In this document: piece by piece, positions 364-18,434 of the stretch
Position numbering within the stretch: position 1 is the first letter of the stretch
Layout: each line of letters opens with the position of its first letter
DNA from: a virus
Virus record (IMG/VR): IMGVR_UViG_3300035698_014942
Coordinates: 1 to 20,639 of that record
Length of the DNA stretch: 20,639 nt
Strand: one strand, 5' to 3'
Translations under genes and position numbers: made by a program
The notes under the pieces: model-generated
What the model was told of the DNA's origin: nothing
Seen by the model: the letters and a program-made list of their open reading frames with translations, nothing else
Databases searched by the model: none

Positions 364-392
364 GTTAACTTTTTGGTTATTTTTGTTATAAT
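364..392 (+). promoter_or_regulatory. Sigma70-type extended -10 promoter for the NAD salvage genes
   Basis: TGTTATAAT (384-392) is a perfect extended -10 (TGnTATAAT). A GTTAAC box (364-369) lies 17 bases upstream of the TATAAT. The same arrangement, with the same GTTAAC box and same spacing, recurs at 2791-2819, which supports both. The expected transcript start is near 399, giving a leader of about 65 bases before the ATG at 466. A host sigma70-type polymerase would be expected to read it, so early expression is inferred. Confidence 0.75.
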
Positions 393-465: not shown

Positions 466-1395
466 ATGGAAGACTTTGATGTTGGTGTTGTTATCGGTAG
501 ATTTCAAGTCCCTAATCTTCATACAGGGCACAAGAAAATTCTTGATGAAGTTCTAAAAAACCACAAGAAAGTTCTTATTTTTGTTGGTGTTTCTTCTGCC
601 AAAAATACCCGTTGTAATCCTCTGGATTATATTACTCGAGTTCGAATGCTTGGACAAACATATCCAGAAGCAGTGGTTTTACAAATTCATGATGGGCCAT
701 GTGATGCAAGTTGGTCACGAGAGTTAGATCTTCGAATACGGGAAGTATGTCCAACTGAAACCATCCTTTTATATGGAAGTCGCGACGGGTTTATTCCAAA
801 ATATTCTGGAGAGTTTCATACTATGGAGCTTCCGGCTGGTAAAGCTATGTCAGGTTCTGAAGTTAGAGCCTTAGCTTCTAAGGAAGTAATAAATTCTTCA
901 GAGTTTAGGCATGGAGTAATTTACGCTTCGTATAACAAATATCCTATTTCTTTTACAACAGTAGATGCAGCTATCATTAACAAGGATAAGAAACAAGTAC
1001 TTTTGGCAAGAAAAAAGCACGAAACGCAGTGGCGCTTTGTTGGTGGATTTGTTGATATTAACAAAGATGTTACTTTAGAAAATGCTGTTAAACGAGAAGT
1101 TGCAGAAGAGACTGGTTCGTTGGGTGTTGGTGAACCATTGTATATTGGAAGTACGAGAATTGACGATTGGCGATATAAAAATGAAGTAGATGGTATTATA
1201 ACTACATTTTTTTATATTCCTTATATTTTTGGACTGCCAAAAGCTTGTGATGATATTAACGAACTTCAGTGGTTTTCTTTTTCAAGTCTGTTTGAAGATT
1301 CTCTTGGGATTGAAAGAATTATGGTTAAGGCACATCATGTTTTAGGGCAACAACTTAAAAAGTATTTACAGAAAGGGAACAATAATGAAAACTAA
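466..1395 (+). CDS. nadM: Bifunctional NMN adenylyltransferase / Nudix hydrolase
   Basis: A two-domain protein of 309 residues. The N-terminal half is a nucleotidyltransferase of the NMN adenylyltransferase family: VIGRFQVPNLHTGH (residues 9-22) is the ATP-binding GRFQP..HxGH region, and SGSEVRAL (129-136) resembles the second nucleotide-binding motif. This domain makes NAD from NMN and ATP. The C-terminal half (from about residue 160) is a Nudix domain, with GGFVD at 193-197 and REVAEETG at 210-217. Such domains hydrolyse ADP-ribose or related dinucleotides. The same fusion is known from Synechocystis and from phage KVP40. The start at 466 is fixed by AAGGAG seven bases upstream. The stop overlaps the start of the nicotinamide phosphoribosyltransferase gene by 11 bases, so the two are translationally linked and form one pathway. 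The family is clear; the preferred Nudix substrate is not. Confidence 0.93.
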   Translation: MEDFDVGVVIGRFQVPNLHTGHKKILDEVLKNHKKVLIFVGVSSAKNTRCNPLDYITRVRMLGQTYPEAVVLQIHDGPCDASWSRELDLRIREVCPTETILLYGSRDGFIPKYSGEFHTMELPAGKAMSGSEVRALASKEVINSSEFRHGVIYASYNKYPISFTTVDAAIINKDKKQVLLARKKHETQWRFVGGFVDINKDVTLENAVKREVAEETGSLGVGEPLYIGSTRIDDWRYKNEVDGIITTFFYIPYIFGLPKACDDINELQWFSFSSLFEDSLGIERIMVKAHHVLGQQLKKYLQKGNNNEN

Positions 1396-2785
1396 TTTTA
1401 TATTACAAACTGATAGTTATAAATGCAGTCATTGGCGCTGTTACCCACCAAAAATGACTAATATGTATTCTTACTTTGAAAGTCGTGTTGGAGCAAAATT
1501 TAAAGATACTTGTTTCTTTGGTTTGCAGTATTTTATTAAAGAATACTTTGAAGGTCAAGTAGTAACAGAAGATAAGATTCAAGAAGCTAAAAAGTTTATA
1601 GATGTACACATTGGCCCTGGAATTTTTAATGAAGAAGGTTGGAGATATATTCTTGAAAAATATGATGGTATGTTGCCTGTTAAAATCATGGCTGTTCCAG
1701 AAGGTACACCAGTTCCTGAAAGTAATGTACTAATGACTATTGAGAATTTAGATCCTAGATGTTATTGGTTAACAAATTATCTTGAAACTCTTTTAGTTCA
1801 GGTGTGGTATCCGAGCACTATTGCCACGCTTTCGAGAGAGAGCAAGAAAAACATTTTAAATGCTTTAAAGGTGTCTGGTACTCCTTCTTTAGTTGATTTT
1901 AAACTACATGATTTTGGTTATAGGGGTGTATCGAGCCATGAGAGTGCAAGTTTAGGGACTGCTGCTCATTTAATAAACTTTAAAGGAACTGATACAATTG
2001 CAGGTATCTTAATGGCACAAGAGTATTATAATACAAAAGACATGGTTGGTCTTAGTATTCCTGCATCGGAACACAGTACAATTACAAGTTGGGGAAAGGA
2101 TCATGAAGCAGACGCAATGGCAAATATGTTGGAGCAATATACAACTGGGTTAGTCGCATGTGTGTCTGATTCGTGGGATATTATGAATGCTTGTAAAAAT
2201 ATATGGGGAAAAGAATTAAAGGATAAGGTTCTTGCTAGGGACGGTGTTTTAGTAGTTAGACCGGATTCTGGTGATCCTGTTCAGACTGTATGTCAAGTAA
2301 TTGGTTTACTTGGTGATTCATTTGGATTTCATACCAACGATAAAGGTTATAAGGTTTTAAACGATAAGGTTAGGGTGATTCAGGGTGATGGAATTAACTT
2401 TGAAATGATTCCTGAAATTTTAAACGCAATGAAAGCTAATAACTTTTCGGCTGATAATATTACTTTTGGATCTGGTGGTGGTTTGTTACAACAGGTAAAT
2501 CGAGATACGCAACGTTTTGCATTTAAATGCAGTTCTGTAATTGTAGATGGCCAACGAAGAGATGTTTTTAAATGTCCAGTTACAGATCCAACTAAGAATT
2601 CAAAGAAAGGTAGACTTGCTTTAGTAAACGTAGATAATGAATATAGAACAGTTCCAGAGTATTGTTGTTCTGAGGGTCTTCATGGAAAAGAAAACTATAA
2701 AAATCTACTTGAAGTTGTATTTGAAAATGGTAAACTTGTTCGTGATATGACTTTTGAACAGGTTCGAAACAATGCAAATATATGA
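1385..2785 (+). CDS. nadV: Nicotinamide phosphoribosyltransferase
   Basis: This 466-residue protein, the usual length for NAMPT/NadV, joins nicotinamide to phosphoribosyl pyrophosphate to give NMN, the first step of two-step NAD salvage. Family motifs run through it: YSYFESR (28-34), HDFGYRGVSS (175-184), NFKGTDT (198-204), SIPASEHSTITSWG (224-237, with the His that is phosphorylated in human NAMPT), DSWDIMNAC (262-270), VVRPDSGDP (290-298), GDGI (334-337), FGSGGGLLQ (361-369) and RFAFKCS. The ATG lies inside the last codons of the upstream gene, after a GGGAAC-type ribosome site. With its neighbour it completes nicotinamide to NMN to NAD without the bacterial deamidation route. It ends just before a second promoter of the same type. 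No key residue appears to be lost. Confidence 0.97.
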   Translation: MKTNFILQTDSYKCSHWRCYPPKMTNMYSYFESRVGAKFKDTCFFGLQYFIKEYFEGQVVTEDKIQEAKKFIDVHIGPGIFNEEGWRYILEKYDGMLPVKIMAVPEGTPVPESNVLMTIENLDPRCYWLTNYLETLLVQVWYPSTIATLSRESKKNILNALKVSGTPSLVDFKLHDFGYRGVSSHESASLGTAAHLINFKGTDTIAGILMAQEYYNTKDMVGLSIPASEHSTITSWGKDHEADAMANMLEQYTTGLVACVSDSWDIMNACKNIWGKELKDKVLARDGVLVVRPDSGDPVQTVCQVIGLLGDSFGFHTNDKGYKVLNDKVRVIQGDGINFEMIPEILNAMKANNFSADNITFGSGGGLLQQVNRDTQRFAFKCSSVIVDGQRRDVFKCPVTDPTKNSKKGRLALVNVDNEYRTVPEYCCSEGLHGKENYKNLLEVVFENGKLVRDMTFEQVRNNANI

Positions 2786-2790
2786 AAGTG

Positions 2791-2819
2791 GTTAACTTTC
2801 TGTTTATTTTTGTTATACT
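2791..2819 (+). promoter_or_regulatory. Second copy of the GTTAAC / extended -10 promoter
   Basis: GTTAAC (2791-2796), a 17-base T-rich spacer, and TGTTATACT (2811-2819). Both the boxes and most of the spacer match the promoter at 364-392. It lies six bases after the nadV stop and would restart transcription for the small basic gene and the LpxR-like gene. A weaker possible second promoter follows at 2852-2879: TTGGCG, 16 bases, then TATAAA preceded by TG. Confidence 0.7.
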
Positions 2820-2922
2820 ATTATTTAAATGAAAAGAAAATATAAAGCAATTTGGCGAACTATATTAAATTGTTATAAAATAACAAAGAAATATAAAAAC
2901 AGAAACAGAAAAGGTGTTTGAT

Positions 2923-3129
2923 ATGCCAGAATATTATAATAAAGAAGTTAAATCAATTCCTACTAAAGAATATAAATCAACTTCTACTAAAGAACGTAAA
3001 TCAGCTCCTATTAAAGAATATAAACAAACACGAAATGGTAAAGGTGATAAACCGAGAAAAGGTGCTAATTTGTTAAAGTTTCGAAAAAATTTTGATCAGA
3101 TAAACTGGAAATCAAAAAAGATTAAATGA
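2923..3129 (+). CDS. Small basic protein with tandem 8-residue repeats
   Basis: A 68-residue, Lys/Arg-rich protein. The ATG at 2923 is preferred over the in-frame GTG at 2914 because AAAAGG ends eight bases before it. The N-terminal half is built of imperfect 8-residue repeats (KEVKSIPT, KEYKSTST, KERKSAPI, KEYKQTRN) that follow the codon frame, so the DNA is also repeated in 24-base steps (about 2944-3040). The C-terminal half, with GKGDKPRKG, LLKFRKNFDQINW and a basic tail, resembles the end of small phage proteins with a 'GKGDKPR...F..NYD.I' pattern whose function I do not know. Its TGA overlaps the ATG of the next gene (ATGA), so the outer-membrane protein is probably translated by coupling to it. 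A nucleic-acid or membrane-surface role is possible but unproven. Confidence 0.65.
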   Translation: MPEYYNKEVKSIPTKEYKSTSTKERKSAPIKEYKQTRNGKGDKPRKGANLLKFRKNFDQINWKSKKIK

Positions 3130-4028
3130 AAAGATGTTTTTGTGTGAGGTATTTATTAATAATTTTATTACTTTTTGTTACACAAGCTGTATATCCTGGA
3201 ACAATTTCTTTATATGAAGAAAATGATTTTCTTGGAAAAGATGCGACTGGATCATCTACGGATGGGTATTATACTCAAGGGTTTCAAATTAAATATGAAG
3301 ATGATGCTGATTGGGGAATTAAGTTAGCTCAACAAATTTATACACCAGAAAATAAAGACGACCCGAATCCGCAGTACAATGATCGTCCGTATGCGGGTTG
3401 GTTGCATGGAGAATTTTTTAAAAAGACATATAAAGAAAATTACGAAAATTATTATGAATTAGGTATTGGTATAGTGGGTCCAGCCTCATTAGCAGAAGAA
3501 ACACAAACAGGTTTTCATAAATTAATGCATATGGAGCCTCCGATGGGTTGGGAGTGGCAACTTAATAACGAGCCTACTTTACAATTAGCATATTATAGGA
3601 CATATTCAATATTTGTAAATAACTATATAGAATTTCGACCATATGGCGGGGCTAACTTTGGAAATGCTTTGGTAAACGTCGAATTGGGAAACATAATTCG
3701 AGTAGGGTATAATATACCTAAAAATTTTGATCCGGTTATAAGGTTGCTTCAAACTGATAAAACCTTTTGGGATAATGTATATGCTTATGGTTTTATTGGT
3801 GGTAAAGTATATGCTGTTGCTAGAAATATATTTTTAGATGGAAATACATTTAGTCATAATGTTGTTACTGTAGATAAAGAAAATATTGTTGGGGATGGAC
3901 TTTTGGGGTTGTGTTTTGGAATATACGGATTTGAGGCAACAATGACTCATGTAGAAAGAACAAAGGAATTTACCACTCAGAGTAGGGATGAACGATTTGA
4001 TTCTTTACAAATAGGTTATACTTTTTAA
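3126..4028 (+). CDS. LpxR-family lipid A 3'-O-deacylase-like outer-membrane protein
   Basis: A 300-residue protein. It has a clear signal peptide: Lys/Arg at the start, a hydrophobic core YLLIILLLFV at 9-18, and probable cleavage near residue 25. The mature protein follows the LpxR (DUF2219) pattern. It has EENDF at 31-35 (Asn33, Asp34), TDGYYTQGF at 45-53 (Thr50), QQIYTPE then NDRPYAGWL at 85-93, and a GIGIVGP stretch before His131 and GWEWQLNNEP. Asn, Asp, Thr and His at these places match the catalytic residues described for Salmonella LpxR. The protein ends in an aromatic residue (LQIGYTF), the usual signal for outer-membrane barrel assembly. LpxR enzymes remove the 3' acyl chains of lipid A at the cell surface. 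A phage copy could remodel host LPS during infection, for example against superinfection or in lysis; that is inference. The start is coupled (ATGA) to the upstream gene and lacks its own strong ribosome site. Confidence 0.85.
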   Translation: MKRCFCVRYLLIILLLFVTQAVYPGTISLYEENDFLGKDATGSSTDGYYTQGFQIKYEDDADWGIKLAQQIYTPENKDDPNPQYNDRPYAGWLHGEFFKKTYKENYENYYELGIGIVGPASLAEETQTGFHKLMHMEPPMGWEWQLNNEPTLQLAYYRTYSIFVNNYIEFRPYGGANFGNALVNVELGNIIRVGYNIPKNFDPVIRLLQTDKTFWDNVYAYGFIGGKVYAVARNIFLDGNTFSHNVVTVDKENIVGDGLLGLCFGIYGFEATMTHVERTKEFTTQSRDERFDSLQIGYTF

Positions 4029-4037
4029 GTAAATGAA

Positions 4038-4640
4038 TTAGAGTTGTTTTGGTAGAGTTATTGCAATTGGTTGTGGGGCTGGTTGACTAGTTAAAACCTC
4101 TTCTTTTGGTTCTGTAATATTTATAACTCTTTGTTCCTTAATCAATTTTTGTTCTATATCGTCTACAGATTCTACGGTTACATCAGTAGTAATACTTTTT
4201 TTTGATTTTTCTTTGTTATTTAATATTTCTTTAAAGATTTCCTCACGAGTGCTTACAATGTTAATTTGGGTATTACCAGAGTTTATATTAGATACACCTT
4301 TAATTTCTTTGGTTAAGTTTTGCTTCTTATTTTGAATATTTAATTTACTTAAGATTTCGAGGGTTCCATTGGTCGATTTTATCATAGAAGCATAGGCTTC
4401 AATCTCATTTGGGTCAATTGTTTGAGAAACGGCGTTTTTTAGGTCTGTAATAGTCTCAACACCGTCTTGGACGATTTGTTGTGCATTCTTAAGCACAAAA
4501 TCGTTTAGATTGTCGTCAGTAAGGTTAGATGCTGGTTGAACAGAGATCGCCTGTTTTTGAGCTGGAATCGGCATGTTTAATGAAGGCTTAGGGCGTTCTA
4601 GTTTGATATCTTGGATTATCTTTTCAAGTTCTTCATCCAT
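4038..4640 (-). CDS. Probable small terminase subunit (gp16-like)
   Basis: A 200-residue acidic, helical protein read leftward, with AAAGG eight bases before the ATG. The centre reads PNEIEAYASMIKSTNGTLEIL, then a basic stretch, then NTQINIVSTREEIFKEIL. This follows the order seen in T4 gp16, where a helix with 'hMEVFSTLMgqMttTNREIL' is followed by a linker and 'MNIQNATVFmGSPTELMDEI'. Small terminase subunits form a ring that recognises DNA for packaging. The upstream motif TTAAATACTTAAAAAG marks it as late, which fits packaging. The flanks (Pro/Gln-rich N terminus, Pro-rich C terminus) are not diagnostic. Its stop lies nine bases from the stop of the convergent LpxR-like gene. No large terminase gene is visible in the window, so the identity rests on motif order and late control only. 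Confidence 0.45.
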   Translation of the reverse strand: MDEELEKIIQDIKLERPKPSLNMPIPAQKQAISVQPASNLTDDNLNDFVLKNAQQIVQDGVETITDLKNAVSQTIDPNEIEAYASMIKSTNGTLEILSKLNIQNKKQNLTKEIKGVSNINSGNTQINIVSTREEIFKEILNNKEKSKKSITTDVTVESVDDIEQKLIKEQRVINITEPKEEVLTSQPAPQPIAITLPKQL

Positions 4641-4667: not shown

Positions 4668-4685
4668 TCTTTTTAAGTATTTAAT
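4668..4685 (-). promoter_or_regulatory. Late-type promoter for the gp16-like gene
   Basis: On the minus strand this reads ATTAAATACTTAAAAAGA, a member of the repeated late motif also found at 11619-11636, 12171-12183, 12675-12692 and, on the plus strand, 12706-12721. It lies about 30-45 bases before the ATG at 4640, the placement expected of a T4-like late promoter (TATAAATA). It is the least conserved of the five, with TTAAATA in place of (G/A)TAAATA. Confidence 0.6.
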
Positions 4686-5068: not shown

Positions 5069-5159
5069 TAAAAAGAAATATGATAGAAGGAGAGAAAAAC
5101 AAGAATTTAAACAGAGTTTTAAAGAATATCTAGAAGGAGTTGAAGACAATGAGTGTTAA
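4959..5159 (+). CDS. Small basic phage protein with WGxVxPVTxV motif
   Basis: A 66-residue protein starting at an ATG preceded by AAAGGAA about eight bases upstream. The core, TWGEVDPVTQVMPNKKKYDR then REKQ, matches a pattern I know from short phage proteins ('WG..nPvTrv...Kk.Ydr.k.k') of unknown function. It overlaps the upstream gene by 110 bases in another frame. Its last 11 bases overlap the start of the next gene, whose AAGGAG lies inside its 3' end. The short, strongly basic make-up is typical of early phage genes that act on host machinery, but nothing in the sequence names a target. Confidence 0.65.
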   Translation: MKGKWKKELDGKQKWKKMPKIRKTWGEVDPVTQVMPNKKKYDRRREKQEFKQSFKEYLEGVEDNEC

Positions 5160-5322
5160 AGTAACTGTAGAAAATTATGGTACATATCAAATTGACGATG
5201 CTAATATTCCGGAGATTCTTCGGTGGTTAACAAATATACAGGCTGTTCAGATTAAAGAAAGCAATATTGTTAAAGAAGTTAAGAACCACGAATTTACTGG
5301 TAGAGAACTTGTTAATGGTTAA
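5149..5322 (+). CDS. Hypothetical 57-residue protein whose 3' end is tandemly repeated
   Basis: The start ATG at 5149 has AAGGAG (5134-5139) nine bases upstream and beats the in-frame TTG at 5140. The protein begins with a beta-rich part (VKVTVENYGTYQI) and a short helix (PEILRWLTNIQAV), and ends KEVKNHEFTGRELVNG. It is unrecognised. The last 16 codons belong to the first unit of a 49-bp tandem repeat. Because 49 is not a multiple of three, the next unit enters out of frame and the gene stops at TAA 5320-5322, at the second unit's beginning. The two later units would encode nearly the same peptide (KEVKNHEFTGRELIN) in their own frames. Confidence 0.6.
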   Translation: MSVKVTVENYGTYQIDDANIPEILRWLTNIQAVQIKESNIVKEVKNHEFTGRELVNG

Positions 5323-5415
5323 AGAAGTTAAGAACCATGAATTTACCGGTAGGGAACTTATTAATGTTTAAAGAAGTTAAGAACCATGAATTTACCGGTA
5401 GGGAACTTATTAATG
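5269..5415 (+). repeat. Three tandem 49-bp direct repeats
   Basis: Units at 5269-5317, 5318-5366 and 5367-5415. Units 2 and 3 are identical except for the first base or two. Unit 1 differs from them at a handful of positions: CAC/CAT, ACT/ACC and AGA/AGG, all silent in the gene frame, plus GTT/ATT (Val/Ile). There are no spacers between units, so this is not a CRISPR array. The silent pattern suggests that the sequence behind units 2 and 3 was once under protein-level selection. Confidence 0.97.
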
Positions 5416-5678
5416 TTTGTTTAGGTTGTTAACTACCTAACTATTAAAGATGTTGAGGTTCCCTTGCAGTAAAAACTATGAAAAATGGACGTGCGTTATA
5501 TACGATTATTATGTAAAGTTGTGTTATAAAGAAAGGTTATAATACTTTAATTAGTTCACTTAGACGATCAATAAATTAGAACACCCTATGGTTGCTCATG
5601 GGCTAATAACCAAAGATATTAGAGTAGGGAAAATTTGGTGACGAATCGGAAATCCAAAATTAAAGTATAGTTTTTAAA
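5416..5678 (+). other. Gene-free, hairpin-rich stretch before the RlaP-type gene
   Basis: No convincing gene is seen here. Several inverted repeats are. TTAGGT/ACCTAA (5421-5440, 8-base loop). GTTC (5554-5557) with GAAC (5579-5582). CCCTA (5584-5588) with TAGGG (5625-5629), enclosing CTAATA/TATTAG (5603-5608 with 5617-5622). AATTTGG with CCAAAATT (about 5632-5661). GGTT (5590-5593) can pair with AACC (5608-5611), which falls at the edge of the CTAATA hairpin loop, so a pseudoknot or two alternative folds are possible. The stretch could be the structured leader of the next gene or a separate RNA. It does not fold as a tRNA by eye, and I recognise no riboswitch class. Confidence 0.45.
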
Positions 5679-7231: not shown

Positions 7232-7879
7232 ATGACAGATTTTAATTCGCTTCTCGTAGAAAAATACAGACCAAAAACTCTTTCTGAAATTGTATTGTCG
7301 AAGCCCAATCGAGATTATTTTGAAAACATTGCAAATCTTAAAGAAATTCCACATTTATTACTGGTAGGTCAACAGGGAATTGGGAAAACATCGATTGCAA
7401 AGATCATAGTTAATGAATTATTAAATTGTCAATACCTTTATATTAATGCTTCTGATGAAAGTGGTATTGACACTATAAGAAATAAGGTTACTAATTTCGT
7501 TCAAACTAAGGCTATTGATGGTAAGTTAAAAGTTGTTTTATTAGACGAATGTTTAGATGAAAATGAAATTGTTTGGATATATCGAGATGGACAAAAACAA
7601 ACAGTAAAAATTAAAGATTTAGATGAAAAAAATGATTTAGTATTATCATTTAATTTTAAGAAAAATCAAGTTGAATGGGTTCCTTTTTTCTTATTATATA
7701 AAGGTTATAGTGACAATTTATATGAAATTGAATTTGAAAATAATGAAAAAATTATTTGTACTGATGACCATAAATGGTATATAAAAAATCAAAATGGAAA
7801 AATAATTAAAATGAAACTCAAAGATATTATGAAAAACGGAATAACATCAATTATTTCTATAAAAAAGAATGGAATCTGA
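7232..7879 (+). CDS. Clamp loader ATPase (gp44-like), N-extein fused to N-terminal intein half
   Basis: A 215-residue product. Residues 1-106 are the start of an AAA+ clamp-loader ATPase: VEKYRPKTLSEIV near the N terminus, Walker A GQQGIGKT (46-53), and Walker B VVLLDE (101-106). Residue 107 is Cys and begins an intein: CLDENEIV is block A, and IICTDDHKW is block B with the T-x2-H motif (intein Thr71, His74). The frame stops at 7877-7879, after 109 intein residues. Without splicing, the protein is cut in the middle of the Walker B DExD signature and would be useless as an ATPase. The other half is at 8200-8955. The start at 7232 follows the tRNA by 15 bases with a weak AGAAAG site. Confidence 0.92.
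   Translation: MTDFNSLLVEKYRPKTLSEIVLSKPNRDYFENIANLKEIPHLLLVGQQGIGKTSIAKIIVNELLNCQYLYINASDESGIDTIRNKVTNFVQTKAIDGKLKVVLLDECLDENEIVWIYRDGQKQTVKIKDLDEKNDLVLSFNFKKNQVEWVPFFLLYKGYSDNLYEIEFENNEKIICTDDHKWYIKNQNGKIIKMKLKDIMKNGITSIISIKKNGI
7550..7876 (+). other. N-terminal half of a split intein (IntN)
   Basis: 109 codons from Cys1 to the last sense codon before the TGA. It has block A (CLDENEIV), a middle part with LVLSFNFKKNQVEWVP, and block B (TDDH at intein 71-74). The length and the order of segments resemble the N halves of known natural split inteins such as NrdJ-1 (about 105 residues). With the C half at 8200-8322 it sums to 150 residues, the size of a mini-intein without an endonuclease domain. 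Confidence 0.8.
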
Positions 7880-8207
7880 CTGAATAATGATATAATCATA
7901 ATTTAGGAATTAAAAAATTTCAAAAATATTGTAAAGAATGTGCTAAAAAATTTGTTTGGTTACATCATAAGCGCCCACCGGAATTGTGTCAAAAATTGTC
8001 TAATATTCTAAATGAACGAAAAAATACTAAAAAAGCAAAAGAAATTTATAAGAGGGTTGGTAAATTAAATTCAAGTGGATAAACGAAAAAAATATATTAA
8101 AATTTTTAAACGTTGATCTCTTAAAAAGCAATTCTGAATATTATAAACAGTTTCAAAAATTAGAAAAAGGAATAAAATATATTCAAAAGGAAGAAATTAA
8201 TGATTTG
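7880..8207 (+). pseudogene. Remnant of a gene, perhaps a homing endonuclease, between the intein halves
   Basis: Two protein-like stretches in different frames fill the gap. 7891-8082 reads HNLGIKKFQKYCKECAKKF, followed by a Lys-rich helical part. 8064-8207 reads KWINEKNILKFLNVDLL, followed by a Lys/Glu-rich helix. The first has no usable start codon and has TAA and TGA just upstream; one indel between 8064 and 8079 would join the two. The Cys pair YCKEC recalls the zinc modules attached to homing endonucleases, but no catalytic motif is readable. Homing endonuclease genes are known to sit between the halves of fractured, split-intein genes, so a decayed copy is the natural reading. An unrelated small gene, or sequencing indels in A-runs, cannot be excluded. 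Confidence 0.45.
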
Positions 8208-8322
8208 TGAATTAAAAATTAAAAATATAAGAAAATTAAATATAAAACGAAAAATATATGATTTACACGTTTTAGGTAATCATAATTTTTTTATTGGAAA
8301 AAATAAAATATTAACGTCGAAT
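8200..8322 (+). other. C-terminal half of a split intein (IntC)
   Basis: 41 codons ending in Asn (8320-8322), followed by the +1 Cys of the extein (8323-8325). The HNFF of block F and the short leading peptide after the ATG look like the C halves of natural split inteins (gp41-1, NrdJ-1). The penultimate residue is Ser, which in other inteins tends to slow Asn cyclisation but does not always stop splicing. Confidence 0.8.
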
Positions 8323-8955
8323 TGTGATGGTATTACATCAATGGCTCAAGGTGCTCTTAGAAATTTAATGGAAGAGTATGCCTCTAATTGTCGATTTATT
8401 TTAACTGGTAATTATAGAAACAAAATTATAGATCCAATTAAATCACGTTGTCAAATGTTTGATCTGACACCAACTATCGAAGATTGTTTTGCTAGGTGTG
8501 TGCAAATTATTAAGCAGGAAAATATTAGAGTTGAAAATGGGCAAAAAGAACGCCTTTCAAATTTAATAAAGTCTGATTATCCAGATCTTCGTAAGATAAT
8601 TAATGATATTCAAAAATATACTATTAATAGTGTATTAAATATACCAGAAAAATTGAATGTTGTTTCGTCGTTTGTTGATAAACTGCTTGACAAAGTTGTT
8701 AATAACGCTAACATATATGAAGTAAGAAAATATGTTATTGAAAATGAAATGCTCTTTTCAAATGATTATCATGGATTATTGAAAGAGTTGTTTGAATCAA
8801 TATATAATAGAGAGTCATTATCAGTGGAAAGCAAAAAAAGGATGTTGTTAGAAGTCGCAAAGAGTATGTACGAACACCAATTTGTGTTAGACAAAGAAAT
8901 TAATTGTTATGCTTGTTTAATTAAATTATTTGAAAGAAAGATATATAAGAATTAA
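8200..8955 (+). CDS. Clamp loader ATPase (gp44-like), C-terminal intein half fused to C-extein
   Basis: A 251-residue product with its own start: ATG at 8200, eight bases after AAGGA. Residues 1-41 are the C-terminal intein half. IYDLHVLGNHNFFI is block F, and ILTSN ends block G with the terminal Asn. The extein resumes at Cys42 with CDGITSMAQGALRNLMEEY, which directly continues the Walker B DE of the other half to give DECD. Sensor 1 (FILTGNY) and the SRC arginine-finger motif (IKSRCQMF) follow, then the helical lid and collar. The C-extein has 210 residues; added to the 106 of the N-extein it makes 316, against 319 in T4 gp44. The residue before the terminal Asn is Ser instead of the usual His. 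The stop lies 22 bases before the thyX start. Confidence 0.92.
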   Translation: MICELKIKNIRKLNIKRKIYDLHVLGNHNFFIGKNKILTSNCDGITSMAQGALRNLMEEYASNCRFILTGNYRNKIIDPIKSRCQMFDLTPTIEDCFARCVQIIKQENIRVENGQKERLSNLIKSDYPDLRKIINDIQKYTINSVLNIPEKLNVVSSFVDKLLDKVVNNANIYEVRKYVIENEMLFSNDYHGLLKELFESIYNRESLSVESKKRMLLEVAKSMYEHQFVLDKEINCYACLIKLFERKIYKN

Positions 8956-11618: not shown

Positions 11619-11636
11619 CTTTTTAAATATTTATCC
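11619..11636 (-). promoter_or_regulatory. Late-type promoter for the 252-residue late protein
   Basis: On the minus strand this reads GGATAAATATTTAAAAAG. ATAAATA matches seven of the eight bases of the T4 late consensus TATAAATA. It lies 22-40 bases before the ATG at 11597. Confidence 0.75.
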
Positions 11637-12170: not shown

Positions 12171-12183
12171 TTAAGTATTTACC
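12171..12183 (-). promoter_or_regulatory. Late-type promoter overlapping the end of the upstream gene
   Basis: On the minus strand this reads GGTAAATACTTAA. The last codons of the upstream gene (GTA AAT ACT TAA, for Val-Asn-Thr-stop) are the promoter motif itself. It lies 31-43 bases before the ATG at 12140. Confidence 0.7.
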
Positions 12184-12662
12184 TTTTCGATAATGGTTTC
12201 TTTAACTTCTATGACTGGTTTTGCTTGTTTATCAGGTATTTTTGATATTAAAAATAAGGCTATTTTAATTAACAATTCATTACTTCCACTGGTTACATAT
12301 AAGAATATTCCAAGTAATATTGCCCATTCTGGTGTAAAAATGTTAATATTTGAACCATATCCAATAGCTTGCATGACTAAATTAAATAAACAACCAGCAA
12401 TAATAGCCCCTCCAGATATCATTGAGAGCGGATAAAGCCAACGTGGTGCGGAAGCACTGGTTAACATCTTCTCTCTTAACCATAATTCAGCCTGTTTAAG
12501 GTTAAAATCTAATTGATTAACTGCCATTTCATATTGTTGACGCAATTCGGCTAGTTTAGTTTCATCGGGATGTCCACGACCAATTAAATCAATAATTCCC
12601 GTTCCAAGGCTTTTAACTAGATCTATACCAGCAGAAACAGCTGTAATTATACCAATGTCCAT
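12171..12662 (-). CDS. Membrane protein, possible holin of the three-span type
   Basis: A 163-residue protein with AAGGAAGG before the ATG and a late-type promoter 13-30 bases upstream. It begins with a weakly hydrophobic stretch (IITAVSAGIDLVKSLGTGII), then an amphipathic helix (ELRQQYEMAVNQLDFNLKQA) and SAPRWLYPLSM. Two strong membrane spans follow: GGAIIAGCLFNLVMQAIGY, and WAILLGIFLYVTSG with LLIKIALFLI after it. The tail is charged (VIEVKETIIEKVNT). The helix, then a Pro-Arg/Trp turn, then spans arrangement is like the three-span holins of gene-transfer agents and phages, but the match is only in layout. Together with the 71-residue protein it would form a lysis membrane pair. Confidence 0.7.
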   Translation of the reverse strand: MDIGIITAVSAGIDLVKSLGTGIIDLIGRGHPDETKLAELRQQYEMAVNQLDFNLKQAELWLREKMLTSASAPRWLYPLSMISGGAIIAGCLFNLVMQAIGYGSNINIFTPEWAILLGIFLYVTSGSNELLIKIALFLISKIPDKQAKPVIEVKETIIEKVNT

Positions 12663-12674
12663 AATAATTTCCTT

Positions 12675-12692
12675 CCTTTTTAAGTATTTACC
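12675..12692 (-). promoter_or_regulatory. Late-type promoter, leftward half of a divergent pair
   Basis: On the minus strand this reads GGTAAATACTTAAAAAGG, 13-30 bases before the ATG at 12662. The AAAAAGGAAGG that follows also supplies the ribosome site, so the transcript leader must be very short. Confidence 0.75.
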
Positions 12693-12705: not shown

Positions 12706-12721
12706 GATAAATATTTAAAAA
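12706..12721 (+). promoter_or_regulatory. Late-type promoter of the baseplate operon, rightward half of a divergent pair
   Basis: GATAAATATTTAAAAA lies 22-37 bases before the ATG at 12743 and is 13 bases from the leftward promoter. It is the only promoter seen for the whole rightward structural operon, which runs off the window. Confidence 0.75.
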
Positions 12722-12742: not shown

Positions 12743-13207
12743 ATGGGATCTTTGAATTTCGTACAGTATAAAAACGCTCAAACTAATGAATTAGGTCATT
12801 ATTATACAGATCTTCATCTCGATTTTACAGATCATGTTATTGTAAATGCAGATGGAACAACTGGAAGAGATATAGACATTGATGTGGATGATGGGGCTAT
12901 AGCTAATTCAATAATTAATATAATGTTAACCCATCCTGGTGAACGTTTTTTGGTTCCCACGTTTGGTTGTAATTTATATGAGTATTTGTTTGAGTCAGTA
13001 AGTACGATTATAGCTAAACAAATTGGTGAACGAATTAAAAACGCTATTGAAGATTTTGAACCTAGAGTTACAGTAAATAATGTATTGGTTTATGCAGTTA
13101 CGGATACTCAGGAATACGTAATTGATTTATCAATAGGTGTTCCATATCTTAGTAGGAATTTTAGTTTAGTTCAAAAACTTAAGACTCTTGATCAGCATAG
13201 CTTTTAA
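12743..13207 (+). CDS. Baseplate wedge protein, gp25-like
   Basis: A 154-residue protein (T4 gp25 has 132) with the GPW/gp25 family pattern. An N-terminal TDLHLDF is followed, after an acidic insert, by DGAIANSIINIMLTHPGERF and PTFGCNLYEYLFE. After these come the helix IAKQIGERIKNAIEDFEPRV and a beta-rich end. gp25-type proteins form part of the baseplate wedge and share a fold with the lysozyme-like component of type VI secretion (TssE). It is first in the late structural operon, with a GTAAGG ribosome site. The following gene starts 17 bases after its stop. Confidence 0.9.
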   Translation: MGSLNFVQYKNAQTNELGHYYTDLHLDFTDHVIVNADGTTGRDIDIDVDDGAIANSIINIMLTHPGERFLVPTFGCNLYEYLFESVSTIIAKQIGERIKNAIEDFEPRVTVNNVLVYAVTDTQEYVIDLSIGVPYLSRNFSLVQKLKTLDQHSF

Positions 13208-13223
13208 TTAAAAGGATATTATT

Positions 13224-15044
13224 ATGGCAATCGACACTCCAATTAAAAATGACAATTATCTTTCAATAAGCTCTTTGACACTTAAGCAATTTATTAAAGA
13301 TAAAATGAATCAGGCTGGAGTGTTTAAGGACGCAAATTATGAGGGGTCTAATATTTCTGCATTTATTGATGTATTTTGCTACACAATTGATGAACTTTTA
13401 TATTATTTAAATAAAACTTCATCTGAGACAACTTGGGGTGATGCTTCTGTTTATGAGAATGTAAACCGTCTATCAAAATTGTTAGGATATTCTCCAATAG
13501 GTAAGCAAACTTCGATCTTACCATTTGTTATGGCGGGTTCATCATCGTTATCAATTGGCTTATATACGATTCCGAAATATAGTTTCATAACATTGGGGAA
13601 TGCAACTTACTCGTTTAATGAGAATATTACATTTTCAAAAACTATTAATGGTGACGAAACATTTACAGACTTATCGAATAATAAATTGTTTTATGAAGGC
13701 AAATATATTGAGTATCCATTATATACGGCTATCGGTCAAGATTTCGAAATACTATATTTAACTCCAGGAGAAAATGTTAAAATTGACCACTTTAATGTTG
13801 ATGTTTATGTTGAACAAAACGGTGTGTGGTCTCAATGGGATCGAACGCCTTCATTATACTTAAATACGGCAACGGATAAGGTTTTTGAAATTCGATTTAA
13901 TGAAAATAAAAATTATGAGATTAAGTTTGGTGATAATATCAATGGAGTAAAGTTAAATGCTAGTGACTCTGTTGCTATTTATTACTTGCGGTCCGACGGA
14001 TCAGGCACAGAAGTTGGTGTAGGAGCTTTACAAGGACAATCGTTAACAAAGTATAGCACTCCACAATTTAATACTATTTTTAATGCAATTATTGAACCTG
14101 AGACGAATTTACTATCAGATAGTTTATATAATACATTAACATTTGATAATACACGAATTTCAACTTATTTTTCAAATGAAGAGTCTGTTGATGATATTAA
14201 TGTTAATGCACCCAAAACATTTAGAAGTCAGTATAGATTAGTAACGCAAAGTGACTATGAAACATATATTAAGACTAATTTTTCTAATATGATACACGAC
14301 TTAAAGGTGTTTAATAATTGGGACTATATTAGTAATATAATGAAGTACTATTATGATTTAGGAATTGCAAGCCCTTCAAATGCTGCTAATATACTTTATA
14401 ATCAGGTGCAATATTCTGATGCCTGTAACTTTAATAATGTATATATTGTTGCTGTACCAACTAAAACCACTTTAGGGGTTACAGAATTGGTATATCTTTC
14501 TCCTGCTCAGAAAGAGTTAATAATGAATACAATTTTTGATCAAAAGACTTTAACGTCTGAACTTCTTATTATTGATCCGGTATATATGACGGTTGGGTTG
14601 TGTATTGAAAACTCAGACGTTACTGGGGCCTCAATTGAAGATGGTATAGGAAAAACAGAATTAGCTATTGTTAAAGATGAGTATAGTCGAAGAGATAATA
14701 ATGCTATTAAAAATGATATTAATAATATTGTTGTTGATTACTTTTTAAGAACAGATTGTTCTTTAGGACAAACAATTGATATTGATGTCATGACCGCCCG
14801 TATATTGAGTGTAGTCGGAGTAAAAACTTTTTATACAAGACGAACTGATAATAATAATATAAAATATGAAGGATTATCATTTGTGTTATGGAATAGTATA
14901 TATGCTTCTTTAGATAAAAAAATAATTTCGGCTAATGTAAATCTTAAGAATTTTCAGTTTCCGTTCTTATATAATCCTTTAACGTTTCTAAATCAAGTTA
15001 GTGTAATAAGTAATATAACAATTTACGAAAATATTGAATACTAA
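13224..15044 (+). CDS. Baseplate wedge protein, gp6-like
   Basis: A 606-residue protein (T4 gp6 has 660) with AAAGGA eight to ten bases before the ATG. The N terminus shows the gp6/J-like pattern. LTLKQFIKDKM and NYEGSNISAFIDVFCYTIDE are followed by ASVYENVNRLSKLLGYSPIG, the usual 'd.eGSN...liDvlaY...' and 'n....aklLGY.p' order. The C-terminal third (KTFRSQYRLVTQSDYETYI, and later VDYFLRTDCSLGQTIDI) also follows baseplate J-type proteins. In T4, gp6 dimers bracket the wedges to close the baseplate ring. The neighbouring gp25-like gene supports the assignment. Its stop is three bases before the next ATG. Confidence 0.85.
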   Translation: MAIDTPIKNDNYLSISSLTLKQFIKDKMNQAGVFKDANYEGSNISAFIDVFCYTIDELLYYLNKTSSETTWGDASVYENVNRLSKLLGYSPIGKQTSILPFVMAGSSSLSIGLYTIPKYSFITLGNATYSFNENITFSKTINGDETFTDLSNNKLFYEGKYIEYPLYTAIGQDFEILYLTPGENVKIDHFNVDVYVEQNGVWSQWDRTPSLYLNTATDKVFEIRFNENKNYEIKFGDNINGVKLNASDSVAIYYLRSDGSGTEVGVGALQGQSLTKYSTPQFNTIFNAIIEPETNLLSDSLYNTLTFDNTRISTYFSNEESVDDINVNAPKTFRSQYRLVTQSDYETYIKTNFSNMIHDLKVFNNWDYISNIMKYYYDLGIASPSNAANILYNQVQYSDACNFNNVYIVAVPTKTTLGVTELVYLSPAQKELIMNTIFDQKTLTSELLIIDPVYMTVGLCIENSDVTGASIEDGIGKTELAIVKDEYSRRDNNAIKNDINNIVVDYFLRTDCSLGQTIDIDVMTARILSVVGVKTFYTRRTDNNNIKYEGLSFVLWNSIYASLDKKIISANVNLKNFQFPFLYNPLTFLNQVSVISNITIYENIEY

Positions 15045-15047
15045 TAC

Positions 15048-18000
15048 ATGAATACTGTTCTTAAATTTGGATCAAGACCACCGCCAGCGGAAGAAACCTT
15101 TGCAAGTCCTCTTCCGTTTATAATTTATTTGTCTGCTGGTGATGCAGATTATTTGTCTCGTGTACCTGAATATGACGATTATGAAGCATCTATGCCTGGA
15201 CATCTAATTAACCTTTATTCAAAGAACTCAAATTCAAGCCCCTGGCAAGAAACTCGAAATCGCTGGTCTGTTCTGGTTCCGCAGTGGCATTTTACGGATT
15301 TATCAGGTAACAAAATCAATTATTTAACAACGTCAGATACTCCGGTTTATGATACAAGTAGTAATTTTATTGGTGTAACTGGTTTTGGACAATTTTACTA
15401 TGTAGATGATACGGCAACCACTCAAGATCAATATGTTTTATTAATAGCTACGTTAATGACTTCCGCATATGAGTTGTCTGCTGATAACGCTAAACAGTAT
15501 GAACCTTCTTATGCTAATTCTCGGGCTGTTGCTTTTATGGATTATACAATCAATGCTCAGACTCCAGCAATATTAAAAATAACTCGAAACTCTTTAAGTG
15601 GGGAAGATGGGTATATAACATCCCCAAAATGGGTAGATACACACGCAAGACATATTATAACTGTTCATGGAAATTTGTTTGATGATGCGGTATGTACCGA
15701 TTCTTATTATGCTAATTTAACTCCATTAATTTTTAGTTACCCAGAAACAAATACTATTGGACTTAAATATCCAGTTGAAAGATATGTCTGGCCTTTAGAT
15801 GGTAATTCATATATTCCAGTAACTCATACTTCTACCCAAACTTGGATACCAACTTCAGTAACGTTTACTGCGGAGAACCAATATGAAATTAGTCAACGAG
15901 GATTTGTTATTTCAGATGTTATTCCAGACTCAAACGTTGATGACATTCCATTTTCAGTTGCTCAAGATGCAGTAAGCTCAATTGCTGGAACGGATCAAGC
16001 AAAATATATGAATTATATTGGTGGATCTGTCCCAGTAACAATATCATTTTCAGCAGACCAGATGGACTATACAGTTTCATCGTGGAAGTGGGATTTTAAT
16101 TTTAACTCTACGACGGATGGCAGTTCAGCTTATGAATATATTTCTCATACCTTTAGTGATTATATTACTGCTTCTGATACTTATAGTATAAGTGTTACTG
16201 GTTGGCCTTCTGCTGGAGCAGGCACAAGTTCATTATTGGTTTCGTGTTTTGACTTATCTTTTTATACAGATTTAACAGGGTATGGTGCCCGACTTGTAGC
16301 AGCAGTATCAGCTGAATATGAATTGGTGTGGAGAGATACACCATTTGTATGGGTGTCAAATCCAAACAACAAAACAATTAATCGAATTTATTATCCAGGA
16401 TATACATTGGAATCTTATCCGTTGTTTCCACCGAGTTTATCTTCTTCTCCGTTATCAGCTATATCATTTACTTTAATACCTTCTGCTGAAGTGTCAATAT
16501 ATGATACACCTTATATAGGGGATGATGGATCGTGGAAGGATTATTATTCTGGTATCATGGATCTAAGTGGTTTTGGTGGTATATTTGGAATCGCGGTTAA
16601 TAAATGTTATGATGTATGGGCAGTAGACCCAGAACAAGATTATTTACTTAAATTTAAAGTTGATGGGACTGTAGTATCAAAAACTAGAATTGAACCTTCT
16701 GGGTGTAGTCCAATGGGAATAGCATTAGATAGTGAAAGTAATTTTTGGGTCACTTTACATGGTGCAGTTTCAACAATAAAGTTTGATTATAATGGAAACT
16801 TTTTAAATGTTGTAGCTGTTCCTTCAGACTATGTGGCCTCAGAAGATATTACAGATGATATTAAATATCGTCCAGTGGGCGTGGATACAGATACGACTAA
16901 TAACATTTGGGTAGCCTATGAGAACTATCCAGGAAGTTCATTAATTAAATATGATACAAATGGAGTTCAATTGTTGTCTTGTATGTTACCTTTATGCGCT
17001 CAACCACAAGATGTAATAGTAGATCCTATTAGACAAGCCTGTTGGGTAACAAATTCATATGAAATGATATCCTCAGTTGATGCTTGGGATTATTGGCGCA
17101 ATGATTTAGTTCTTCCAGGTACAATTCAGTTATGGAGTTCTGGTGGTTCATTGCTAAGTTCATTTGGTGGATTTGATCATCCTGATTATATTACTTTAGA
17201 TAGAAATTTAGGGGTGTGGTTTACATATGGGTATCATAGTATAGGACACATTACGTCTGGTGGATCTATAACAACTTATATAGTTTCAGCTACAGAATTT
17301 GCATCTTATTTAAGTGGAGATTTTTATTCTGATTTCTCTACTTTTCCAATGGAGTATAACGAAACATTAGGTGGTATTGCTTGCGATGCAAAAAATAGAA
17401 TATGGATTATTAATTCATTAGAAAATAGGGTGTATGTTGTGTCTGCTGATACAATAACTTATGAACAAAGTGCATATACATCATTTAAAATTAGGCCGGA
17501 TAACAATTTGGCTTTCTTTAATGAATCACATGTATCTGAAAGTAATGAATGGTTTAAATCTGCTCAAGCATTTGGAGATTGGACTGGTTATAGATGGTTA
17601 CAAAAATACTATCCATACTATCCGCATACAACAACTTATTCTTATATATCAGGCATGAGTAATGAGTTTTTAGTTAAAAGATTTGCCGATGAATATGATA
17701 TAAGAAAACAAAATGATAGTTGGAGCCCTATCACAACATATCAAGATTATATGCTACCACAGCACTTAAAGGATAATCCTCAGATTTTTAACTTGTATTT
17801 AAATGCTATGGCCGGTAATGCAAGTTTATCTGCTGATTCTATACTAAGACATTCATATGAAAAAATTGCTAATTTTATGCCGAATCATTTGGATATTGAT
17901 GCTTGTGAAGTAGCTCAGTTATATGCAGTTTCAAAGGAATTAAATGTTCCTATTGACGATTATAATTTTAGTTTTCCATCGTCTATTAGAGCTTATATGA

Positions 18001-18434
18001 ATTTGTTTTCAATTACTCATAATAAACTTTGGGGTGCTCGTTGTAACTGTAATCAAAATATAGATCCAAATAAAAAAGCGGAATGTCCATGGTGTGGGCA
18101 TAATCATACAAATATTGGAAACTTTTTAACAGCTGAGTTGGTTGGTGGTGAGTATTTTATTCAAAAAGATAAATCAAATAATGTATATGAGTTGAGTTCA
18201 ATACCGATGGGTACAACATTTTCACAAGTTCAAAACGATTCTTATTTGTATTTTGATTATATACCTACAGTATGCGGTGAACAGGTAGAAGGTGTAATTA
18301 ATTGGGAATCAGATTATACGACTTTAGATGAGTCCGTTTCATCAATAGAATCTTGGTATGGAGACGCAGGAACAGTTGAAGAAATTTTAAACCATGATTT
18401 ACGTCTAAATATTTTTGGTGGGTTAAGTTATTAA
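15048..18434 (+). CDS. Large baseplate/tail protein with PKD-like and beta-propeller domains
   Basis: A 1128-residue protein starting three bases after the gp6-like stop, with no clear ribosome site of its own. The first 270 residues are beta-rich and unrecognised. About 325-385 resembles a PKD domain (WKWDFNF, then YISHTFSDY and YSISVTGW). About 505-805 has five or six repeats of a 'GIA.D....N.WV' type (GIFGIAVNKCYDVWAV, PMGIALDSESNFWVT, PVGVDTDTTNNIWVA, PQDVIVDPIRQACWV, LGGIACDAKNRIWII), as in NHL or Vgb-like beta-propellers. The C-terminal 250 residues are mostly helical and carry RCNCNQ and CPWCGHNH (Cys999, 1001, 1013, 1016), a likely zinc site. By size and position it could stand where T4 has gp7 (1032 residues), but sequence similarity to gp7 is not evident. 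Propeller and PKD parts could bind carbohydrate or other tail parts. Confidence 0.8.
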   Translation: MNTVLKFGSRPPPAEETFASPLPFIIYLSAGDADYLSRVPEYDDYEASMPGHLINLYSKNSNSSPWQETRNRWSVLVPQWHFTDLSGNKINYLTTSDTPVYDTSSNFIGVTGFGQFYYVDDTATTQDQYVLLIATLMTSAYELSADNAKQYEPSYANSRAVAFMDYTINAQTPAILKITRNSLSGEDGYITSPKWVDTHARHIITVHGNLFDDAVCTDSYYANLTPLIFSYPETNTIGLKYPVERYVWPLDGNSYIPVTHTSTQTWIPTSVTFTAENQYEISQRGFVISDVIPDSNVDDIPFSVAQDAVSSIAGTDQAKYMNYIGGSVPVTISFSADQMDYTVSSWKWDFNFNSTTDGSSAYEYISHTFSDYITASDTYSISVTGWPSAGAGTSSLLVSCFDLSFYTDLTGYGARLVAAVSAEYELVWRDTPFVWVSNPNNKTINRIYYPGYTLESYPLFPPSLSSSPLSAISFTLIPSAEVSIYDTPYIGDDGSWKDYYSGIMDLSGFGGIFGIAVNKCYDVWAVDPEQDYLLKFKVDGTVVSKTRIEPSGCSPMGIALDSESNFWVTLHGAVSTIKFDYNGNFLNVVAVPSDYVASEDITDDIKYRPVGVDTDTTNNIWVAYENYPGSSLIKYDTNGVQLLSCMLPLCAQPQDVIVDPIRQACWVTNSYEMISSVDAWDYWRNDLVLPGTIQLWSSGGSLLSSFGGFDHPDYITLDRNLGVWFTYGYHSIGHITSGGSITTYIVSATEFASYLSGDFYSDFSTFPMEYNETLGGIACDAKNRIWIINSLENRVYVVSADTITYEQSAYTSFKIRPDNNLAFFNESHVSESNEWFKSAQAFGDWTGYRWLQKYYPYYPHTTTYSYISGMSNEFLVKRFADEYDIRKQNDSWSPITTYQDYMLPQHLKDNPQIFNLYLNAMAGNASLSADSILRHSYEKIANFMPNHLDIDACEVAQLYAVSKELNVPIDDYNFSFPSSIRAYMNLFSITHNKLWGARCNCNQNIDPNKKAECPWCGHNHTNIGNFLTAELVGGEYFIQKDKSNNVYELSSIPMGTTFSQVQNDSYLYFDYIPTVCGEQVEGVINWESDYTTLDESVSSIESWYGDAGTVEEILNHDLRLNIFGGLSY

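Follow-up and report, generated by a model that had tools for sequence, protein, structure and literature searches.

A T4-like phage fragment encodes a predicted LpxR-family lipid A deacylase that may remodel the host outer membrane

We analysed a stretch of 20,639 nt, here called the window, from an IMG/VR virus record (IMGVR_UViG_3300035698_014942). It is a 20.6-kb fragment whose gene content is that of a T4-like phage. The main features are given below; L048 and L132 are uncultured phage contigs with which the window is compared.

364..392, + strand: second copy of the 29-bp promoter-like element, preceding the NAD-salvage operon
466..1395, + strand: adenylyltransferase-Nudix protein, NMNAT/Nudix-like (PF00293, PF01467; NCBIfam PRK05379 below cut-off)
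1385..2785, + strand: nicotinamide/nicotinate phosphoribosyltransferase (PF04095, PF18127; phrog_448, E 1e-163)
2791..2819, + strand: 29-bp promoter-like element GTTAACTTTCTGTTTATTTTTGTTATACT, preceding the 71-aa/lpxR pair
2914..3129, + strand: 71-aa Lys-rich ORF (likelier start at ATG 2923), its stop overlapping the lpxR start
3126..4028, + strand: lpxR-like gene, 300 aa, ATG to TAA, with a leader of about residues 1-24
4038..4640, - strand: convergent phage gene with a homologue in the L132 contig and a late-type motif (4670-4683) before it
4670-4683 (-), 11620-11633 (-), 12677-12690 (-) and 12708-12721 (+): sites of the motif TAAATAYTTAAAAA
11925..12140, - strand: 71-aa two-TM protein, weakly holin-like, 42% identical to the TM protein directly before the L048 LpxR
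12171..12662, - strand: 163-aa TM protein, 24% identity with L048:1293-1724, late-type motif upstream
12743..15044, + strand: baseplate gp25-like (PF04965) and gp6-like genes, which mark the phage lineage

The lpxR-like gene is an intact frame of 300 codons with a GC content of 32.8% vs 31.6% for the window, and the next phage gene lies 9 bp downstream. The start codon shares an ATGA with the stop of the upstream 71-aa ORF, which makes translational coupling of the two probable. The 71-aa ORF contains a 24-bp repeat in 3.5 copies and had no family match in Pfam and PHROGs. For the lpxR product, the sole Pfam family is PF09982 (LpxR), at 231.5 bits vs a cut-off of 26 (E 1.6e-68), and the alignment is full-length, covering profile positions 5-323 of 323. 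The first-pass annotation had proposed an LpxR-like deacylase with Asn33-Asp34, Thr50, His131, the string DRPYAGWL and a terminal Phe. We found each of these in place, with DRPYAGWL at residues 86-93 and F300 as the last residue, and the observation as a whole was borne out by the frame, the residue positions and the Pfam match.

Mutation of N9, D10, S34 or H122 abolishes activity in Yersinia LpxR (PMC3486919), and the published site also includes Q118 and E128 (PMC6863877). All six residues align with the window protein: N9, D10, T34 (S34) and H122 correspond to N33, D34, T50 and H131, Q118 to Q127, and E128 to E137. Among 88 aligned homologues, N33 and D34 are present in 87 (the remaining one has a gap), Q127 and H131 in every one, and Thr or Ser at the T50 position in 87. 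Simulations of LpxR place K67 in contact with Kdo (PMC6260217); the equivalent in the window is K77, at a position that is mostly Ile in cellular relatives. R68, another Kdo contact, and D11 are both replaced in the window protein (D78 and F35), and R68 is likewise not conserved among the cellular LpxRs of the 88-homologue alignment. The residue equivalent to position 31, where Asp in Yersinia LpxR excludes aminoarabinose-lipid A, is Gly47 in the window and Gly also in Salmonella.

A structure model was made with an input of 56 sequences, the window protein and those of fetched loci (pLDDT 88.8, pTM 0.85). It has 12 strands, a hydrophobic N-terminal helix at residues 4-19, and a helix at 123-133, after strand 5 and before strand 6, as the L3 helix of the LpxR fold. 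By sequence, the solved structure that matches best is Salmonella LpxR (3fid_A, E 3.7e-9); the 56-sequence profile found it at E 2e-29, and it is also the top Foldseek match of the model in the PDB (E 4e-25, TM 0.80). VIA-align placed model residues 25-300 on residues 1-296 of the 3fid chain, with N33 matched to N9 (Z 32.3, rmsd 2.2, 268 residues); residue 25 is where the model begins to match the mature Salmonella protein. The next-best fold was an autotransporter barrel at Z 17.6. Superposition on Salmonella LpxR had been suggested in the first-pass annotation as a check; it gives the LpxR fold, and since 3fid is the best match, an unrelated barrel family is not. The viral structure library had no LpxR fold among its matches.

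The window protein is like Salmonella Typhimurium LpxR in its 12-stranded barrel, in the helix that bears the catalytic His, and in the match to N9, D10, T34, Q118, H122, E128 and K67. It is unlike it in having 22-25% identity, in the two replacements at D11 and R68, and in being a T4-like phage gene and not a chromosomal one. Sequence homology, fold and active-site residues all support the LpxR assignment, and we consider the protein to be a member of the family that is probably active, as predicted from these features.

The phage setting is supported by the virus record, by the gp25/gp6-type genes and by collinear phage contigs. The 59.7-kb L132 contig, from the same T4-like lineage as the window, has counterparts of at least seven window genes, and contigs L007-L010 have fewer. 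The gp6-like wedge protein is 38-53% identical to proteins of four phage contigs, 47% to that of L132, and has a weak, distant match to T4-like phages. The fragment also carries a T4 gp44-like clamp loader, ThyX, RlaP and two tRNAs. No integrase was seen in the 20.6 kb, which would suit the lytic phage proposed earlier, but the fragment is short and a virulent lifestyle is only suggested by it. Searches of phage records with the holin-like window proteins gave no hit.

An intein divides the clamp-loader ATPase into two ORFs (7232-7879 and 8200-8955, + strand), both of which match PF14890. The first ends in the N-terminal part of the intein and the second starts with the C-terminal part, and the stop-free frame between them (7891-8082) resembles a fragment of an HNH-type gene. 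Beside the clamp loader of L132 there is likewise a short sequence that resembles an intein end (54260-54553), together with an ORF of HNH-like type (54516-55364).

We next consider how lpxR may be expressed. The 29-bp pattern GTTAACTTTNTGNTTATTTTTGTTATAMT, which contains TTAACT and an extended TATAAT/TATACT-type box, occurs exactly twice in the window and not once in 100 shuffles. The motif TAAATAYTTAAAAA has four exact copies vs 0.04 expected, lying 28-43 bases before gp25, the 163-aa TM protein, and genes of 252 aa and 200 aa. A copy with one mismatch precedes the 71-aa TM protein, and similar sites are present in the L132 contig too; no copy lies upstream of lpxR. We infer that the 29-bp element is early-type and TAAATAYTTAAAAA late-type. 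The claim of an early-type operon fits with this, as the 29-bp element is common to the NAD-salvage operon and the 71-aa/lpxR pair. Of the claim that lpxR stands behind sigma70-type promoters and no late motif, the shared element and the lack of TAAATAYTTAAAAA speak for it, but a generic sigma70 scan of the window found 30 sites vs 28.9 expected, which is chance. We also tried the T4 motif TATAAATA as a signal and rejected it, as its frequency in the window is not above chance. In L132, a sigma70-like box (TTGATT-16-TATAAT, read by eye) lies directly upstream of the LpxR gene.

LpxR in phages is already known, as it is annotated in phage 434, and what is new here is the carrier and the clade. 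The lambdoid phage and prophage proteins (phage 434, phrog_2309) have the Pfam family in common with the window protein and are likewise phage-carried, but they are about 25% identical to it and form a separate branch. The phage 434 gene lies on the strand opposite the late genes and next to Q, which fits a moron (lysogenic conversion) and not a transcript of the NAD-salvage type. A preprint reports that LpxR adjoins Q in E. coli prophages (PMC13192938). Many near-identical copies of the phage 434 type exist in IMG/VR contigs; a first alignment scan of viral contigs gave 37 near-identical loci, all of this type, and these were set aside. LpxR-family genes also occur on E. coli plasmids, and several of those matches look truncated.

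Scans for close relatives with the window protein alone gave no match in viral or genome contigs. Patterns derived from alignments did locate relatives, as did a DNA pattern for DRPYAG, which gave L132. Three other uncultured phage contigs encode LpxR: L048 and L049, at 44-47% identity to the window protein (47% for L048 and 45% for L049), and L132, at about 28%. The window, L048 and L049 proteins form one clade (SH-aLRT 100) with a stem of 1.4-1.5 changes per site, and in the tree this clade stands apart from every cellular LpxR seen. All residues essential for activity are kept in its three members, and so is K77. Between the L048 and L049 genes pN is 0.17 and pS 0.83 (saturated), which points to strong purifying selection. 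The L132 gene (L155:9625-10587) lies at another genomic site than the window's, beside a GNAT acetyltransferase gene. A separate acquisition of it is suggestive, but a single clade of the four phage proteins was not rejected (p-AU 0.447).

Cellular LpxRs of Verrucomicrobiota, Bdellovibrionota, Acidobacteriota and Proteobacteria have END, DRPYAG, GIVGPAS..Q...H and GW..Q in common with the window protein, and in the alignment they are at most 39% identical to it. A profile search of 387 Verrucomicrobiota and 290 Bdellovibrionota genomes found no close cellular relative, with scores of at most 181 bits. L048 and L049 score 590-622 bits with the same profile, but both were members of it. With no close cellular relative among these genomes, neither group stands out as the donor.

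L048 and L049 have head genes that are Mu-like or unrelated and a GC content of 48-52%, and unlike in the window their LpxR gene is within the head-gene block. The genes directly before it in L048 encode TM proteins of 143 aa and 66 aa, the shorter of which weakly matches a holin (phrog_297, E 0.003). In L049 the preceding gene is for a two-TM protein, and LpxR stands between the portal and protease genes. A 310-aa gene precedes the membrane-protein genes in both contigs; for the L048 copy we obtained no identity from Pfam, PHROGs, or PDB sequence or structure (model pLDDT 48). Both L048 membrane proteins have homologues in the window, 8 kb from lpxR and with late-type motifs. Patatin-like lipases (PF01734) lie in or near prophage-like regions of two Verrucomicrobiota genomes (L167:9948-10832, - strand, and L169:7801-8625, + strand), in each case near a homologue of the 310-aa protein. 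The L167 genome is LpxC-positive, and at its locus the portal, 310-aa and protease genes are kept, with the patatin-like lipase present and LpxR absent.

Taken together, we think it likely that the gene is a phage LpxR that remodels the host outer membrane during infection. The protein would be exported by Sec and BAM, fold as a 12-stranded outer-membrane barrel and hydrolyse the 3'-acyloxyacyl chain from lipid A, with Ca2+ held by Asn33, Asp34 and Thr50 and water activated by His131. If active, it would leave infected cells with less acylated lipid A. The phage would probably gain from a remodelled outer membrane, which may block superinfection or re-adsorption, or may be weakened for release.

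For the purpose of such remodelling, one tentative answer is exclusion, as put forward in the first-pass annotation: an early change of lipid A would hinder adsorption or injection by sibling phages and rivals, or reduce re-adsorption to debris. It is favored by the early-type element that lpxR has in common with the NAD-salvage operon, by the missing late motif, and by the sigma70-like box before the L132 LpxR. Exclusion through genes that alter the cell surface is a known strategy, but phages that use LPS mostly bind its sugar parts and not the acyl chains. The L048 and L049 genes also count against it, as early exclusion is not expected from a gene inside a head-gene block. Our literature search found no paper linking LpxR to exclusion.

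The position of LpxR beside membrane-protein genes in the head block of L048 and L049 makes a role in lysis, by weakening of the outer membrane, a live rival. The enzyme may replace or help spanins, or drive vesiculation, which we regard as possible but doubtful. Deacylated lipid A packs less tightly. The deacylase PagL raises vesiculation in Salmonella (PMC4958258). The weak holin match in L048, the window homologues of both membrane proteins and the two patatin-like lipases near the 310-aa homologues also fit with it. However, 8 kb separate the window lpxR from the membrane genes, the early-type element stands before lpxR, the neighboring 310-aa protein is poorly modelled, a TM-coiled-coil protein in the L049 contig makes spanins possible there, and Salmonella tolerates its own LpxR. 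The more specific proposal that virulent phages use the phage-specific clade as an enzymatic outer-membrane release step, in place of or beside spanins, seems rather unlikely to us. What weight remains beyond exclusion and release goes to other outer-membrane remodelling or to loss of function.

It is unlikely that the protein is a barrel without lipid A catalysis, serving as an outer-membrane blocker or hydrolysing another lipid. The differing R68 and D11 equivalents and the long stem of the phage clade would allow for it, and an inactive Yersinia LpxR still acts as a protein (PMC3486919), but every residue essential for activity is kept in the three clade members, along with K77, and cellular LpxRs do not conserve R68 either. 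That a bacterial gene was joined to a phage contig by artefact is very improbable: the fragment stands alone and matched nothing in the phage collection at the nucleotide level, but the GC content, the ATGA overlap, the shared promoter element, the phage gene 9 bp downstream and the three further phage contigs with LpxR all argue against it.

Lipid A editing has been studied as a means of bacterial immune evasion and antibiotic resistance. The presence of the LpxR clade in at least two unrelated phage types, together with L132, suggests that phages gain from altered lipid A acylation, and from these genes phages appear to edit the host outer membrane during infection. The phage lpxR genes would be a new pool of predicted lipid A deacylases. 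If the release reading is true, they would represent a lipid-hydrolysing route through the Gram-negative envelope.

There are two further observations on the fragment. Three 49-bp tandem repeats (95% match) at 5270-5418 span the end of a 60-aa ORF (5140-5322), and may represent duplication of gene ends or an array with a regulatory function. A large protein from the baseplate region (15048-18434, + strand) has a beta-propeller that resembles the virginiamycin B lyase family, though weakly and at a score below the cut-off (E 2e-6).
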